From the NCBI RefSeq assembly GCF_000020785.1, contig NC_011126.1:1116001-1180000 (forward strand): a stretch of 64,000 bases of DNA, given 5' to 3'. A program made the translations under genes and the position numbers. This document shows positions 12,970-18,965 of the stretch, piece by piece (position 1 is the stretch's first letter; the number at the start of each line of letters is the position of its first letter). The notes under the pieces were generated by a model. That model did not search any database and was not told the origin of the DNA. It was given only the letters and a program-made list of their open reading frames with translations. Origin of the DNA: Hydrogenobaculum sp. Y04AAS1. Lineage in GTDB: Bacteria > Aquificota > Aquificia > Aquificales > Aquificaceae.

Positions 12970-14329
12970 ATGAAGATTATAAATGCTAAAAATTTATTGG
13001 GTCTGGGTGTTCTTACCGGTGCAAGCCTTGTTTTGTCCTGTGGCGGAGGAGGGTCATCAGGAAATGGCTTTACTCAAAATGGGTATTATACCCTAAGCGC
13101 AAATGCATATGCCAATCCACCGATATATTCTGTAATCACAAATCCAAGCATCGCTATACCACAAGATACTTGGAATATAAACGTATCCCTTGATTACAGT
13201 GGCAACACCTCCACACTTTCAACTACTTACGCTATCATCACATCCTCTTCCATATGTTTTGGCGACCCTACCATACCAGGTAGTCAATGTTCAAATGTGC
13301 CCCTTAACACAAATATATTACCTTTAAACGGCGGTATCCAATAATCTATTACATTTTCTCCCATCTACAAATATGGCATGCTTGGACTCATCGCAAATCC
13401 TTATCAAAACGCTCTTAACGGAAGCAACACGTTCCCTCTTATATCCACACAATCATCAACTATACCATACAGCAGTTATATAACCTTAACACCAAACATA
13501 TCTCCTAATTCAGTGCAGATAAGTTTTATAGCCACGTACCAAGTGCAAACAGCAAACAGCAAACATCACAACATTATCTGTAACGAATACATATAGCGGT
13601 ACCAATTTGGTTAGTTCTTCTAGTTTGGTTTCAAGCACAAGCAGCTCTTCCATGCCTTCTTCTTACACCATTTCTGGCCTTTGCATAGACAACGGAAATG
13701 GAAGTTTTTATCCCCAAGCCTATGGTTTATCAAGCTCTTTAAATATAACTTGTAGCGGTAGTATAAATTATACCAACGGCACTATTTCAGGCTTTTCAGT
13801 AAATTTACCTTCTACTCTCACAGTTTCAAGCACGTATTCATCTATTACAAACAGCTCTTTTACTGCATCTTCTACTACCATAATAGTATCTTCTACTACA
13901 AGCCTTGAAACACTAACAAATGGATATTTAAATCAAAACATCGGCATAAATTACACCGCTTCAAATGGCTCTACCACAGGAAATACCTTTTATACTTATT
14001 TACCACCACCAGCAACAGCAGTTTATTCTTTGTACTATGTACCCAGTAGTATAATAGTAGGAAGCACAACCATACCTTGCTCTCAATCTACTTGCCAAAT
14101 TACCAACACTCCAAATGGATACCTAATGCAAATTCAAAACATACCTTTATCTGGCACAAGCGTATCGGCTGTGGTATCAGAATATATGACCTTTAATCCA
14201 TCCATAACAGTACCAACGCATCAAACAGCTTCTACAATACCTTATACTTTTTATATAACTGTAACCCTACCAGACGGTGATACCATGAGCACATCTTTTA
14301 GCAGCGCTATAACTGTGCAATCGCCGTAA
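12970..14329 (+). pseudogene. Ser/Thr-rich surface lipoprotein gene, broken by a stop and a repeat-linked frameshift
   Basis: The first frame (12970-13344) encodes a lipoprotein signal (LVLSC followed by GGGGSSG) and a Ser/Thr/Asn-rich extracellular sequence. An in-frame TAA at 13342-13344 interrupts it; the same frame then continues to 13596. Around 13545-13565 a triple GCAAACA repeat shifts the frame; with two copies the reading would pass as VQTANITTLSVTNTYSGTN into the third segment (to 14329). The restored product would be about 450 residues. I do not recognise the family. Two independent lesions argue for a decaying gene, but the repeat also looks like a phase-variation switch. Sequencing error is the alternative. 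Confidence 0.7.
13545..13565 (+). repeat. Heptanucleotide tandem repeat (GCAAACA)x3
   Basis: Three perfect copies of GCAAACA inside the broken lipoprotein gene. Each copy changes the frame by one; loss of one copy restores the downstream frame. Confidence 0.85.
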
Positions 14330-14345
14330 GATATGATATAAAACA

Positions 14346-14374
14346 TTGAAATATGCAATATTTATGTTTAGAAT
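14346..14374 (+). promoter_or_regulatory. Promoter of the caspase-like operon
   Basis: TTGAAA (14346-14351), 17-base spacer, TAGAAT (14369-14374). The predicted start near 14381 falls at the AGGAGG ribosome-binding site, so the leader is very short. Confidence 0.6.
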
Positions 14375-14391
14375 ATTTCCAGGAGGTGGCT

Positions 14392-15225
14392 ATGAAAAAA
14401 ATTTATAAGAATAGTTTAGTAATTTCTGTATTGACAACAATAGCTCTGGGGATTGGTTCTCAAGCCTTTGCATCTCAAGCAAGAGCTCTTTTCTTAAGCA
14501 CGGCAGGCGCTCAGGTAACTTATAAAGAAACTAAGAAGACTGAAATTACGCAAAAGGTTTATGCTTATCAACCTAAAGAACACAAAGTATATTATCAAAA
14601 AGCGTCTGAAACAATACCGGCTGGTTTATCTGTGCAAGTAATGAAAGTAAGTAGAAACGGATCGGCTTTTCCTATTGATCCTTCAGTTTATAGATTTAGA
14701 AACGGCGATGAATTTGCAGTATCGTTTGAATCAAACACACCAGGATACGTTAGAGTATACAATATAAATCCATCTGGTGACGTTAGCTATTTAGGCACAT
14801 ATGCTGTACCTGCTTTCATGAGAGTTCAACTTCCTCACTCTGGATATTTTAAGTTTACTGGAGAAAGGGGAAACGAAAAGCTAGTATTTCAACTATATCC
14901 TTGCAAATACAGACAAACCTCTGACCAGAATTATGGAGATGAAGCTTCAAGAAACATAATTTTAACTTCAAATAGCAATAGCTATGGTAGAGTAAGCTAT
15001 ACTGTCTTAAACTCTTTGCCTTCCTGTGAACCCACCCAAAATGGACTCAAGGTAGGTTCTACCGTAGTAGCATACAACGATCCAAACATGTCTAGAAATA
15101 TAGTTTTATCAAACTCAAACGCCCAATACAGCTCTTATGATAGCGAGGCTACATACTACGTATCAAGGATAAATACTGCCAATATAAAACCAATAACGGC
15201 AGTTTTAAACTTCATACATAAATAA
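14392..15225 (+). CDS. Secreted DUF4384-like protein
   Basis: A 277-residue exported protein. The ATG at 14392 follows AGGAGGTGG; a longer frame from 14353 is unsupported. A signal peptide (KKIYKNSLVISVLT...AFA) ends near residue 26. The central segment (RNGDEFAVSFESNTPGYVRV, then NPSGDVSYLGTY) matches the DUF4384 pattern, a beta-rich domain often fused to caspase-like peptidases. Three Cys in the C-terminal half could form disulfides. It is first in an operon whose third gene encodes a caspase-like protease, so the usual fusion appears here as separate genes. The molecular function is unknown. Confidence 0.75.
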   Translation: MKKIYKNSLVISVLTTIALGIGSQAFASQARALFLSTAGAQVTYKETKKTEITQKVYAYQPKEHKVYYQKASETIPAGLSVQVMKVSRNGSAFPIDPSVYRFRNGDEFAVSFESNTPGYVRVYNINPSGDVSYLGTYAVPAFMRVQLPHSGYFKFTGERGNEKLVFQLYPCKYRQTSDQNYGDEASRNIILTSNSNSYGRVSYTVLNSLPSCEPTQNGLKVGSTVVAYNDPNMSRNIVLSNSNAQYSSYDSEATYYVSRINTANIKPITAVLNFIHK

Positions 15226-15245
15226 TTTATTAAGCAGCAAAAGGT

Positions 15246-15251
15246 TATGAT
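15246..15251 (+). promoter_or_regulatory. Possible internal -10 (leaderless start of 15258 gene)
   Basis: TATGAT six bases before the ATG at 15258, within a perfect 13-bp palindrome ATGATAATATCAT (15247-15259) that overlaps the start codon. It would add a second promoter inside the operon. Confidence 0.35.
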
Positions 15252-15257
15252 AATATC

Positions 15258-15947
15258 ATGAGAGCTAACGTTTTAAGATTTTGTTATTTTAGTTTGCTTT
15301 TATCCACTGTATTTAGCCAAATATCTTTTGCGATAAACAACGATAGCTGCAGTTACATGCTTGAACATAGCCCTAAAAATTCTGTGGTCGAAAGCACAGC
15401 TAAAGCTGTAATTGGCGGAGGGCTAATGGGCGCTCTGGCAGGTTTCTCATTATATAAAAAAAATAGAATCAAAGGAGCCCTCTTAGGAGCTTTAGCAGGT
15501 ATGGCAGCTGGAGGTGTTTACTCTTACTATAAAAACCAATATAAGCTTAGGATTTCCCCCGAAGATTTAGCTAAACAAATCAATTACGATTATAAAAGTC
15601 CTTACTTCAGATTTGAAAATATCATAATAGAAGGTAAAACCTTTAGACCAGGACAGTATATACCCACCTTTAGACCAGGGCAGTATATACCTTTGACATT
15701 TAGATTTGATATATTAAAACCTAAAAAACACGAGGTGGCCCTTGTAAGTTACTACGCTACTTTGTACAGAAATAACTTTCCTATATCAAGCTTTTACGAT
15801 ACAATAACATTACCTCAAGGAGGGGTAGCAGATGTATTTGCTATACCTGTGTGCAATGGTGTTATCCCAGGCCATTATATATTATATGTAAGGGCTGTAA
15901 GCTCTGGTATTGAAGATGTAAAAGAGGTGGGATGGACTGTGCAATGA
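15258..15947 (+). CDS. Exported glycine-zipper protein
   Basis: A 229-residue protein not assigned to a named family. A signal peptide ends near AFA at residue 25. Residues ~48-90 form a double glycine-zipper hairpin (IGGGLMGALAGFSLY, then GALLGALAGMAAGGVYSYY) typical of small outer-membrane or channel-forming segments. A beta-rich C-terminal domain begins near residue 118 and carries a nine-residue direct repeat TFRPGQYIP x2 encoded by a 27-bp tandem duplication. There is no ribosome-binding site. Its stop overlaps the start of the caspase-like gene. An envelope location is inferred. Confidence 0.68.
   Translation: MRANVLRFCYFSLLLSTVFSQISFAINNDSCSYMLEHSPKNSVVESTAKAVIGGGLMGALAGFSLYKKNRIKGALLGALAGMAAGGVYSYYKNQYKLRISPEDLAKQINYDYKSPYFRFENIIIEGKTFRPGQYIPTFRPGQYIPLTFRFDILKPKKHEVALVSYYATLYRNNFPISSFYDTITLPQGGVADVFAIPVCNGVIPGHYILYVRAVSSGIEDVKEVGWTVQ
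15639..15692 (+). repeat. 27-bp in-frame tandem duplication
   Basis: Units 15639-15665 and 15666-15692 differ at two positions only (25 of 27 identical) and duplicate the residues TFRPGQYIP. The low divergence suggests a recent event. Confidence 0.9.
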
Positions 15948-17266
15948 TTAACATAAAATCAAGGATTTTTAAAATATTGTCTTTGTTAATCCTTAGTGTA
16001 GGGCTTTCAAGAGCAGCTAGCATGAATGATTATGTAAATGAGATAAACTCAGTTTATCATGATATAGGACTTCAAAGCTTTGGAAAAGGCGCTTATGTAC
16101 AAGTAGGTTCCAACGGAAAAATAGACCTAAAAGGAGATTATAAAACCTACAAAGATTTTGAGGAAGCCTATTACATAGCAGAGTCTATAGCAGGCGTATC
16201 AAATGTGAATCCTGCTTTTAACGTAATAAATGCAAACATAATAGAAAGGCCATTAGAAAAATGCGTAGCTTATTCTATGAAAAATGAATACAGCAAATGT
16301 CCTAATATTATAAGCTATAAAAGAGCATTATATCCAACGTCTAAAAAATTTGCCATAGTAATAGCAGTGGGGAAATTTGAAGGACTACCACCCCAAAACA
16401 CATTGTATCCTGGCCCAGAAAATGATGCTAGATTAGTGGCTAAAGAGTTAAGAAAAAAAGGTTTTAGAGTAGAAGAGCTTATTGACAAAAACGCCACATA
16501 TGAAAACGTAAAGAATGCCATAAGAAGCGCGATAAACGCTTTGCCAAATAACTCCACTTTGGTGATATATACATCCACCCACGGTTCACCAAAAACACCT
16601 TCAGGAGAAACGGGCTCTGTTTTATACGACTCTGTAATAAGCACTTACGAAAGCAACAACTGTAACTATACAAATACACAGCAAATAAACAATGAAGGCT
16701 ATAGAGATATAACGGTAGTAAATGCACTAATATCTGCTCAAAAAATGTGTTATATAGTACATAAATCTCTTATCATAGCAACAGATGTCCTGCCATTGAT
16801 AGTAGAGTCTGGGAAAAATATAAATCTTGTAGCTATAGAAGACATATGTTACAGCGGTGCTTCTTTCAAAGGCGTTATACCAGATGCTAAAACTAACGAT
16901 GTATATGCTCCTACGAAATTAGTGGCTGAGAATTTGGTAGGCCGTGATCCTTATCCCATGATTTTACTAACATCGGCTTCTGGAGATCAACATGCTCAAC
17001 AAAGCCGAATAAACATTAAAACTGAAGAGCTTTGTAGCGACAAATCAAATCCAGATTGCGTAGAGCATGGAGTATTTACATACTACTATTTTACAGGACT
17101 TCCAAGAAACAACTATTATCTATACAAAACCTACTATGCCGAGTTCAACAAGATAGTAGACGTATCTAAAAATATAGTAAGTAGATCTATTGGAACTGGT
17201 GAAAGTGACAAACCACAGACGCCACTTTTTATATCAAATAAAAATCTTACAGATTTTGGACTTTAG
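15944..17266 (+). CDS. Secreted BON-domain caspase-like (C14/metacaspase) protease
   Basis: About 440 residues counted from the ATG at 15944, which overlaps the upstream stop as ATGA; an in-frame ATG at 15932 is the alternative. A signal peptide ends near SRAAS. A BON-like domain follows (KIDLKGDYKTYKDFEEAY, then IAGVSNVN), normally a phospholipid- or membrane-binding module. The caspase fold begins at KKFAIVIAVGKF. The catalytic dyad is visible: His of STHG (residue 213) and Cys of EDICYSGAS (residue 302). Six or more further Cys would suit an oxidising envelope. Substrate is unknown; metacaspases cut after Arg/Lys, but this specificity cannot be assumed. Third gene of the 14392-18965 operon. 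Confidence 0.8.
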   Translation: MINIKSRIFKILSLLILSVGLSRAASMNDYVNEINSVYHDIGLQSFGKGAYVQVGSNGKIDLKGDYKTYKDFEEAYYIAESIAGVSNVNPAFNVINANIIERPLEKCVAYSMKNEYSKCPNIISYKRALYPTSKKFAIVIAVGKFEGLPPQNTLYPGPENDARLVAKELRKKGFRVEELIDKNATYENVKNAIRSAINALPNNSTLVIYTSTHGSPKTPSGETGSVLYDSVISTYESNNCNYTNTQQINNEGYRDITVVNALISAQKMCYIVHKSLIIATDVLPLIVESGKNINLVAIEDICYSGASFKGVIPDAKTNDVYAPTKLVAENLVGRDPYPMILLTSASGDQHAQQSRINIKTEELCSDKSNPDCVEHGVFTYYYFTGLPRNNYYLYKTYYAEFNKIVDVSKNIVSRSIGTGESDKPQTPLFISNKNLTDFGL

Positions 17267-17274
17267 GAGGATAT

Positions 17275-18129
17275 ATGAGTCAAAAACCACAAGGAATAGA
17301 GTTAAAGTTTGGCAAAAGGGCAGACATAGAAAATATATCACCCGAGTATGACGTAGAATATATATTTGAAAATCCTAGAGTTCTTTATGATTTGGAAAAA
17401 GAAGCCATAGCAAAACATATAAGGACTAGAACAGATGAGCTTTGCAACAACGAGGAAGAAAAGAAAAAGCTTATTCAGACCATCAAAGATGATTATTGTA
17501 GTGGCTATGAAAAAGACGATATAACAATAATAAATGAAGCTATCAAAGATAATTTATTTAAGAGAAAATTCCATTCTAAAAGCGCTATTATAGGTGCCAG
17601 GGTAATGTTTTTTGGGATTATATTGTTAGAAATGGCCATATTAATATTTATAGGCTTTAGTGAGGGCGGAGGGTTTAACCCCATAATTGTTTTCTATGGA
17701 CTTTTAATACTTGTGGGTTCTTTTCTCATAGGTAACGTACTTGGAGATTATTTTTTTGAAGAAGAGTTGGGAAGACTAAACAAATTTGACAGATCTCGTG
17801 TTATGTCAACAAGAAAAAGAGTTATTGAGCTTTTAGGAGGTATAATCGTCGTACTTCTCGTTTCTGGAGTTAGGGCTATAGGTGCTTATTCTCTCGAAGA
17901 GATGATTATAGTTTTTGCAGTAACATTTGTTTTAGCCCTTGTAGCAGCTGCTTTTGAAGGCGTATATTATGAGTTTTCAGAGTTAAACAAATGGGCTATA
18001 GATCAACAAGTTAAAGCTTTGAGGAAGTACGCTAGCAAGCTCCATTGTGAATCTGCTAAAGAAGATGAACAAGGAGATTCTGAGTATAAGAGGCTCATAC
18101 AAAAAATCTGCAAAGAAACTTCAACTTAA
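17275..18129 (+). CDS. Four-TM membrane protein of the caspase-like operon
   Basis: A 284-residue protein I do not recognise. It has a charged soluble N-terminal region of ~100 residues, four predicted membrane helices (about 104-127, 135-156, 184-203, 208-228) and a charged C-terminal tail with Cys near residues 258 and 280. No signal peptide and no catalytic motif. The start follows GGAGG nine bases after the protease stop, so it is tightly linked. It may anchor or regulate the operon's envelope proteins; this is inference from position only. Confidence 0.65.
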   Translation: MSQKPQGIELKFGKRADIENISPEYDVEYIFENPRVLYDLEKEAIAKHIRTRTDELCNNEEEKKKLIQTIKDDYCSGYEKDDITIINEAIKDNLFKRKFHSKSAIIGARVMFFGIILLEMAILIFIGFSEGGGFNPIIVFYGLLILVGSFLIGNVLGDYFFEEELGRLNKFDRSRVMSTRKRVIELLGGIIVVLLVSGVRAIGAYSLEEMIIVFAVTFVLALVAAAFEGVYYEFSELNKWAIDQQVKALRKYASKLHCESAKEDEQGDSEYKRLIQKICKETST

Positions 18130-18143
18130 AAGGAGGAAGTTAT

Positions 18144-18965
18144 ATGAGAAAAAAATCCATAGCTATTTTGGCTTTGGCATCTGTGGCTTTGTTTTCATGT
18201 GGGGGCCCTAAAAAAACTGTTTTGTTAGAAGGCGGTAATGCTTATGATCTACTTCAGCAATATATAAGCACAAAGCATGCAAAGCCTGGAGATTTGCAAG
18301 TAGAAATATGGGATGGTAAAAACTTGAAAGCTTACAGCTTGTCATGGCAAAGTACTATTACAGGAGCTGATTATATGAGCCTGTGGAAAGAAAGACTTAG
18401 TAAAGTGAATGCGCTCTATAAGCCAGGTTTAGATAAAGAAGCAAAAGCAAACAATTGGGATGTATATATATCACCAACATTAACTTTGCAAAAAACCTCT
18501 TCACAAAAAACCCAAAACAAAAAACCAGGGACTTGCAACGTTCAAGCTAGCTCTGATATAAACCTTGGTTTACAGCTTGTCGCATCAGGAGATCTAAAAA
18601 ATGCTTCAAAGCAATTTAAACAAGCCATAAAAGATGACAATAGCTGTGCTTTAGCCTATATTGATCTAGCATCAGCTTACATAAATAGGAAAGATTACGA
18701 TAAGGCTATAGATGTAGCAAAAGAAGGGCTTAAAAACGCTGGAGAAAACAAGGATTTAGAGTATGTTTTAGCTTGTGCTTACTCAAGAGATAAAAAACTA
18801 GACTACTCGTTAGATGCTTTAAAGAAAGCTTTAAAGGATGGTTTTAACGATCCAAACAAGCTAGCACATGACCCGGATCTACAAAACCTAAGATTAGGTA
18901 AGAAAAAAGATTTCTGCGAGCTTCTCAACAAATACAAGATAACTATAAAATACTGCTTGGTTTAA
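18144..18965 (+). CDS. TPR lipoprotein of the caspase-like operon
   Basis: A 273-residue lipoprotein with lipobox ALFSC followed by GGPKK. The middle part (~25-110) is unassigned. From ~135 there are two to three tetratricopeptide repeats (LGLQLVASGDLKNASKQFKQ, ALAYIDLASAYINRKDYDKA, DLEYVLACAYSRDKKLDYSL), a protein-protein interaction scaffold. The start follows AAAGGAGG 14 bases after the previous stop. Probably in the outer membrane or periplasm, it could assemble the caspase-like protease with the DUF4384 and glycine-zipper proteins. Last gene of the operon. Confidence 0.75.
   Translation: MRKKSIAILALASVALFSCGGPKKTVLLEGGNAYDLLQQYISTKHAKPGDLQVEIWDGKNLKAYSLSWQSTITGADYMSLWKERLSKVNALYKPGLDKEAKANNWDVYISPTLTLQKTSSQKTQNKKPGTCNVQASSDINLGLQLVASGDLKNASKQFKQAIKDDNSCALAYIDLASAYINRKDYDKAIDVAKEGLKNAGENKDLEYVLACAYSRDKKLDYSLDALKKALKDGFNDPNKLAHDPDLQNLRLGKKKDFCELLNKYKITIKYCLV

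Follow-up and report, generated by a model that had tools for sequence, protein, structure and literature searches.

The window, the 64,000-nucleotide stretch of the hot-spring bacterium Hydrogenobaculum sp. Y04AAS1 analysed here, is part of one single 1,559,514-base contig. Five ORFs on the + strand occupy window positions 14392–18965 and encode a DUF4384 protein, a Gly-zipper protein, a BON-caspase, a protein with four transmembrane segments (4-TM) and a TPR lipoprotein (Table 1). The dense packing described in the original prediction was confirmed, with intergenic gaps of 32, −4 (ATGA overlap), 8 and 14 bp. The good promoter that had been proposed is indeed represented by a TTGAAA-17-TAGAAT site, but such sites are not clearly above shuffle expectation: the region contains 25 promoter-type matches versus 18 ± 4 in shuffled sequence, and thus the match alone is not evidence. 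AGGAGG lies just 5' of the DUF4384 gene start, whereas the ATG at 14353 falls within the putative promoter and was rejected as a start. No RNA elements were found.

Table 1. Features of the operon region, in window coordinates
Feature	Position	Strand	Basis
Putative sigma-70-like promoter TTGAAA-17-TAGAAT	14346..14374	+	10/12 match
Exported DUF4384 protein (predicted), 277 aa; signal peptide ...SQAFA|SQ; beta-sandwich core ~79-170	14392..15225	+	sequence, Pfam, model
ARAL(F) site near the N-terminus of DUF4384, which has three sites of the R/K-[SATE]-[LV]-F type, this being the first	14479..14490	+	
SRNI motif 1 (S186-I189), low-confidence linker of DUF4384; candidate cleavage after R187	14947..14958	+	
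SRNI motif 2 (S234-I237) of DUF4384, position kept across phyla; candidate cleavage after R235	15091..15102	+	
Exported Gly-zipper protein (predicted), beta-rich C-terminal domain	15258..15947	+	
27-bp in-frame tandem duplication (TFRPGQYIP x2) in Gly-zipper gene	15639..15691	+	
Exported BON-like + orthocaspase-type protease (predicted); BON-like ~27-95, caspase ~134-431; H213/C302, acidic D161/D300	15944..17266	+	
SRSI motif (S413-I416), caspase C-terminal loop; candidate self-processing site	17180..17191	+	
Inner-membrane protein with 4 TM after a cytosolic N-terminus of ~100 aa; optional member	17275..18129	+	
TPR lipoprotein, lipobox LFSC|G	18144..18965	+	

Pfam bears out the DUF4384 and TPR assignments (E-values of 2e-6 and 1e-7, respectively) and identifies the protease as Peptidase_C14 (4e-8 for the window protein, with relatives reaching 1e-17). 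The DUF4384 protein belongs to PF14326 with a score of 28 bits against a gathering score of 27, and the Gly-zipper match (9.5e-5) is below the Pfam cut-off. Export, as claimed previously, is predicted from the N-termini of the window proteins and their relatives, which were read by eye; the 4-TM protein of the window has no signal peptide. The duplication in the Gly-zipper gene is not seen in aligned relatives and is therefore probably recent. Directly upstream of the operon (window 12970–14329) lies a gene for a Ser/Thr-rich lipoprotein with a CGGGG lipobox, whose reading frame is disrupted by a frameshift and an early stop codon; an intact 454-aa homologue is found in genome G001 (L145, 1–1363).

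The lack of a caspase fold at residues ~135–440 in a structure prediction had been set beforehand as a refutation of the proposal; the protease model does show this fold. The AlphaFold2 model is based on six sequences and has a mean pLDDT of 54, with the core alone being reliable. In a Foldseek search, yeast metacaspase Yca1 (5e-5), MALT1 and Geobacter GSU0716 came first, with a probability of 1.0. In the model, the strand order is that of caspases, and H213 and C302 each lie at the end of a core strand. Both residues are found where the original prediction had put the catalytic dyad and, together with D161 and D300, are invariant across the members from Aquificota and Proteobacteria. D161 and D300 were equated with D95 and D211 of TbMCA2 by motif position and by alignment to GSU0716. 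The corresponding Asp residues of TbMCA2 bind the basic P1 residue (PMC6426788; PMC8283722), and the correspondence of this acidic S1 pair predicts Arg/Lys specificity at P1. Judged by its sequence, the protease is an orthocaspase that is exported, has an acidic S1 pocket of the metacaspase type and is predicted to prefer Arg or Lys at P1. The N-terminal region had been described as a membrane-binding BON module. The Pfam match is below cut-off (0.01), profile comparison with hhalign gives E=2.4e-5 (probability 76%), and residues 27–83 form an alpha-beta-beta-alpha unit in the same shallow model (pLDDT 54). The central G-x-I/V-x-L-x-G and GV..V motif of BON is matched in two out of six members. 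The BON assignment is likely, although the domain is divergent and its membrane binding putative.

Single-sequence searches returned no relatives; separate profile searches for DUF4384 and the caspase covered 136 Aquificota genomes. DUF4384 was found in seven of these genomes and the caspase in nine, two of the latter matches being very weak. All seven DUF4384-bearing genomes have the caspase adjacent (hypergeometric 2.5e-10, with relatedness ignored), and the relatives are Aquificaceae. Genome G070 contains all five genes in an order identical to that of the window, although its DUF4384 homologue scores below the PF14326 gathering score. G067 has the first four genes and then the contig ends. 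In G002, the DUF4384, Gly-zipper, caspase (interrupted in the draft assembly) and TPR genes are followed by an unrelated 4-TM protein, which BLAST did not link to that of the window. In G018 the TPR gene is convergent and the 4-TM gene is missing from the locus, whereas in G008 and G044 the contigs end within the caspase gene, so that the downstream genes are not assessable there. Homologues of the window 4-TM protein are present in G067 and G070, bringing the 4-TM gene to three loci; its identification as SLATT or KwaA was rejected, the matches being below cut-off. From these locus contents, the core of the operon consists of the DUF4384, Gly-zipper and caspase genes, which always occur together; the TPR gene is usual and the 4-TM gene optional. 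The five-gene unit originally proposed thus consists of genuine genes that are conserved together, but the 4-TM gene falls outside the core. Co-occurrence of the genes in relatives, set beforehand as a test, is seen within Aquificota and in another phylum. Directly upstream of the operon in G002 (L008, 10926–11453) there is an exported C39-type peptidase, which is absent beside the window operon.

The operon is accessory and horizontally moving. In the sister genome G003, the flanking M23 and YccA genes adjoin without the ~6 kb in between, leaving a clean gap, and in G002 the operon is at a different genomic site. In the Gly-zipper tree, the window groups with genus g4 and not with G002 of its own genus (100/99). 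A phage origin is not supported by the phage search, which gave no match; one viral contig carries the caspase only. This contig, IMG/VR 3300033148_005579 (L151), is predicted to be viral and encodes a relative with a caspase domain.

Outside Aquificota, the operon is found in two proteobacterial loci. The MAG OTTO1 (L033) has the order DUF4384, Gly-zipper lipoprotein, BON-caspase, Tubulin_2 (E=1.7e-61) and TPR, and a Paraburkholderia replicon (L148) the order Gly-zipper, BON-caspase, DUF4384, Tubulin_2 and TPR. The proteobacterial DUF4384 homologues have Pfam scores of 65 and 55 bits, and the Gly-zipper protein of L148 matches the Aquificota profile with E=1.5e-13. In both loci, the gene for Tubulin_2 (FtsZl1) occupies the slot of the 4-TM gene. 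The Y04AAS1 genome contains no Tubulin_2, and membership in the FtsZl1 system applies only to L033 and L148. For FtsZl1 operons, a role in membrane remodelling has been predicted (Makarova and Koonin 2010, PMC2875224); as partners, the main text of that paper names vWA, kinase, GTPase and OmpA proteins but no caspase, and it records no FtsZl1 in Aquificales. The DUF4384 profile retrieved no further proteobacterial loci beyond G136, and a match on a Sinorhizobium plasmid (H7, L149) turned out not to be the operon. In L148 (9268–14176), the FtsZl1 and TPR genes are followed by a second lipoprotein with a TPR end and a TM2-like protein.

The caspase and the linkers of DUF4384 share a short motif, [S/A][R/K][S/D/N/G][I/L]. 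Aquificota DUF4384 proteins carry one or two [STAN]R[SDNAG][IL] sites each, C-terminal to the core, amounting to 15 matches versus 0.8 expected (0/2000 shuffles reach 15), a count that includes non-independent homologues and a pattern picked after viewing the sequences. Aquificota caspases have seven matches against a background of 0.39 per 1000 residues, and the Aquificota Gly-zipper, 4-TM and TPR families have none. As a less biased test, every caspase–DUF4384 pair of 10-mers was scanned with 300 shuffles. The best pair coincides with the motif in L033 (ATSKDLFVEE/AISKDLFVED, z 4.9, 0/300 shuffles) and in L148 (YTSKGIRFSD/YAAKGIAFSD, z 4.5, 0/300 shuffles), the proteobacterial core shared over 8–10-mers being SKDLFVE and SKGIRFSD/AKGIAFSD, respectively. 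The scan picked the motif weakly in G002 (z 1.6, 19/300 shuffles) and was not significant in the remaining Aquificota loci, including the window, where the match comprises four residues, SR[SN]I, and is not significant alone. Control comparisons of the caspase with the Gly-zipper or TPR proteins gave nothing above z 1.4. In five out of ten DUF4384 proteins the motif pair is also the leading internal 8-mer repeat, strongly so in L148 only. A pairing permutation over eight loci, with hand-chosen sites, yielded P=0.0026; the proteobacterial loci drive this result, and Aquificota alone are not significant (P=0.31).

The basic residue of the motif changes concordantly in the two partners. It is Arg in Aquificota, except for one site in G044, and Lys in both the caspase and the conserved DUF4384 sites of L033 and L148. 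The N-terminal ARAL(F) site likewise has R in 7/7 Aquificota and K in both proteobacterial relatives. Proteobacterial caspases have the motif in the loop that follows the catalytic Cys, which is where caspases are processed, whereas those of Aquificota have it in the C-terminal loop. In DUF4384, the motif position before the last strand is conserved, and both motifs of the window protein are placed in low-confidence linkers of a shallow structure model (pLDDT 49), which gave only weak Ig-like matches in the PDB.

Our preferred reading, to which we would give an even chance, is that the operon encodes an accessory envelope system in which the exported orthocaspase processes itself and cuts its DUF4384 partner at the shared motif. 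The protease would be self-processed at its own motif copy, in the C-terminal loop in Aquificota and in the post-Cys loop in Proteobacteria. DUF4384 would be cut after the motif Arg or Lys, splitting off the segments around the beta-sandwich. The complex may be anchored at the membrane by the BON-like domain together with the Gly-zipper protein, with the TPR lipoprotein as a possible scaffold; coupling to the cytoplasmic side might run through the 4-TM protein or, in Proteobacteria, through FtsZl1. By analogy with the processing of pilins by Arg-gingipain, cleavage could be a one-way switch through which DUF4384 is matured or set free. As for the output, envelope remodelling, surface assembly and defence are all conceivable, and we slightly favour envelope maturation or a stress response. 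Points against this reading are the failure of the 10-mer scan to pick the motif in the window, the differing location of the caspase copy in Aquificota and Proteobacteria, the shallowness of both structure models, and the scarcity of the motif in other gammaproteobacterial DUF4384 proteins.

An unlikely but live alternative is that DUF4384 is a regulator rather than a substrate, with its copies of the caspase loop docking in or beside the active site and inhibiting or activating the enzyme while remaining uncut. The close mimicry of the caspase loop (SKDLFVE, SKGIRFSD), the several motif copies per DUF4384 protein and the existence of caspase–DUF4384 fusions are all consistent with regulation. 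However, Arg or Lys at P1 opposite an acidic S1 pocket would be expected of a substrate, and the motifs are predicted to lie in flexible linkers and not on a rigid inhibitor surface. It is quite unlikely that the motif is instead a structural or docking strand, which would add to a beta-sheet in some shared partner, for example in the beta domain of the Gly-zipper protein, the real caspase substrates being elsewhere. The hydrophobic alternation after the basic residue (I-x-V; SRDIAVV, KGIAF) is strand-like and the position before the last DUF4384 strand is conserved, but model confidence at the motif is low and the motif in the post-Cys loop of the proteobacterial caspases would be left unexplained. 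We also regard it as improbable that the sharing is a coincidence in Ser/Arg-rich linkers and that nothing beyond the conserved operon with its exported caspase is genuine. The motif is short, was selected post hoc and does not stand out alone in most Aquificota loci; coincidence nevertheless fits poorly with two independent 0/300 matches in the caspase–DUF4384 pair and none in the control pairs, and with an R/K switch that is concordant between the partners. Little credence can be given to an envelope cell-death or anti-phage device in which the activated caspase frees a membrane-disrupting Gly-zipper or 4-TM protein, as in caspase–gasdermin systems, since, despite the patchy distribution, horizontal movement, caspase core and Gly-zipper and 4-TM partners, these membrane-active partners lack the motif in Aquificota, the neighbours are housekeeping genes and not a defence island, and PADLOC gave no convincing match to known defence systems (best 0.0013–0.0016, partial).

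The operon protease has the p20 core, His/Cys dyad, two acidic S1 residues and predicted basic P1 of prokaryotic orthocaspases and type I metacaspases (Peptidase C14). Orthocaspases described so far have for the most part been treated as intracellular proteins of death or signalling; the protease of the operon differs from them in being exported, in its N-terminal BON-like domain and in its fixed set of partners. Fusions of caspase and DUF4384, which the original prediction had mentioned, are indeed known in cyanobacteria and alphaproteobacteria (PMC8283722, PMC6426788). Here the same two domains are separate exported proteins with a common motif. Through Tubulin_2, the proteobacterial versions touch the predicted membrane-remodelling system of FtsZl1 operons; they differ from it in their caspase, a partner missing from the main text of PMC2875224, and the Y04AAS1 version differs also in its genome being devoid of Tubulin_2. 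Caspase–gasdermin systems are operon-encoded pairs of protease and substrate in cytosolic immunity. In Csx29–Csx30, protease and substrate are likewise encoded side by side in a cytosolic immune system (cf. PMC10028731). The operon resembles both in its adjacent coding and has no gasdermin-like or CRISPR part. Gingipain is an exported clan CD protease with a caspase-like fold. Arg-gingipain cuts the beta-rich envelope proteins of Mfa1/FimA fimbriae after Arg, which triggers assembly (PMC5954841). It is the nearest working analogy for DUF4384 maturation, although protease family and substrate are different and the operon shows no evidence of fimbriae.

We found no description of an exported BON-caspase operon or of the shared motif in the open-licence literature, and within that searchable literature the system is undescribed, as had been suggested. 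The motif shared by caspase and DUF4384 is new here, whereas caspase–DUF4384 fusions and FtsZl1 operons were already known. To our knowledge, few natural substrates have been identified for the bacterial relatives of caspases; an operon that encodes a predicted exported caspase and a partner with a cleavage-site-like motif could give one. If DUF4384 is cleaved, caspase-type proteolysis would be placed in the bacterial envelope and linked to FtsZl1 tubulin-like systems. More tentatively, and as something possible rather than probable, we propose that the exported caspase and DUF4384 co-evolve their cleavage site (Arg in Aquificota, Lys in the two proteobacteria) as a periplasmic one-way switch connected through the inner membrane with either the 4-TM protein or FtsZl1, which would be a previously undescribed class of machine. 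FtsZl1 systems would then gain a proteolytic output, and caspase-type switching would be placed outside the cytosol.

The motif as a general trait of DUF4384 was rejected, being mostly absent in 30 gammaproteobacterial loci. Next to gammaproteobacterial caspases in general, the motif shows a weak enrichment (P~0.1) that is suggestive only. Several other loci carry similar motifs. In L120 (4708–13700, genome G662), a run of exported lipoproteins surrounds an exported caspase–DUF4384 protein, and several of the lipoproteins have TRG[IL], which is also present in the caspase loop (KTRGIG, KTRGLG, RTRGIG); this is possibly the same logic in another lineage. In L049 (5389–10046, genome G221), an operon encodes a Gly-zipper-like/SH3 lipoprotein, a BON-caspase, an OmpA-domain protein and an exported HExxH-type protein, all four of which carry a [ST]R[SAG][IL] motif. 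Finally, L050 (5997–8924), as well as L051 and L052, combines a membrane-anchored DUF4384 protein, in which SRDI/ARDI flanks the domain, and a 4-TM protein with a cytosolic caspase that has ARDI in its post-Cys loop, a TPR gene being nearby in L051 and L052.
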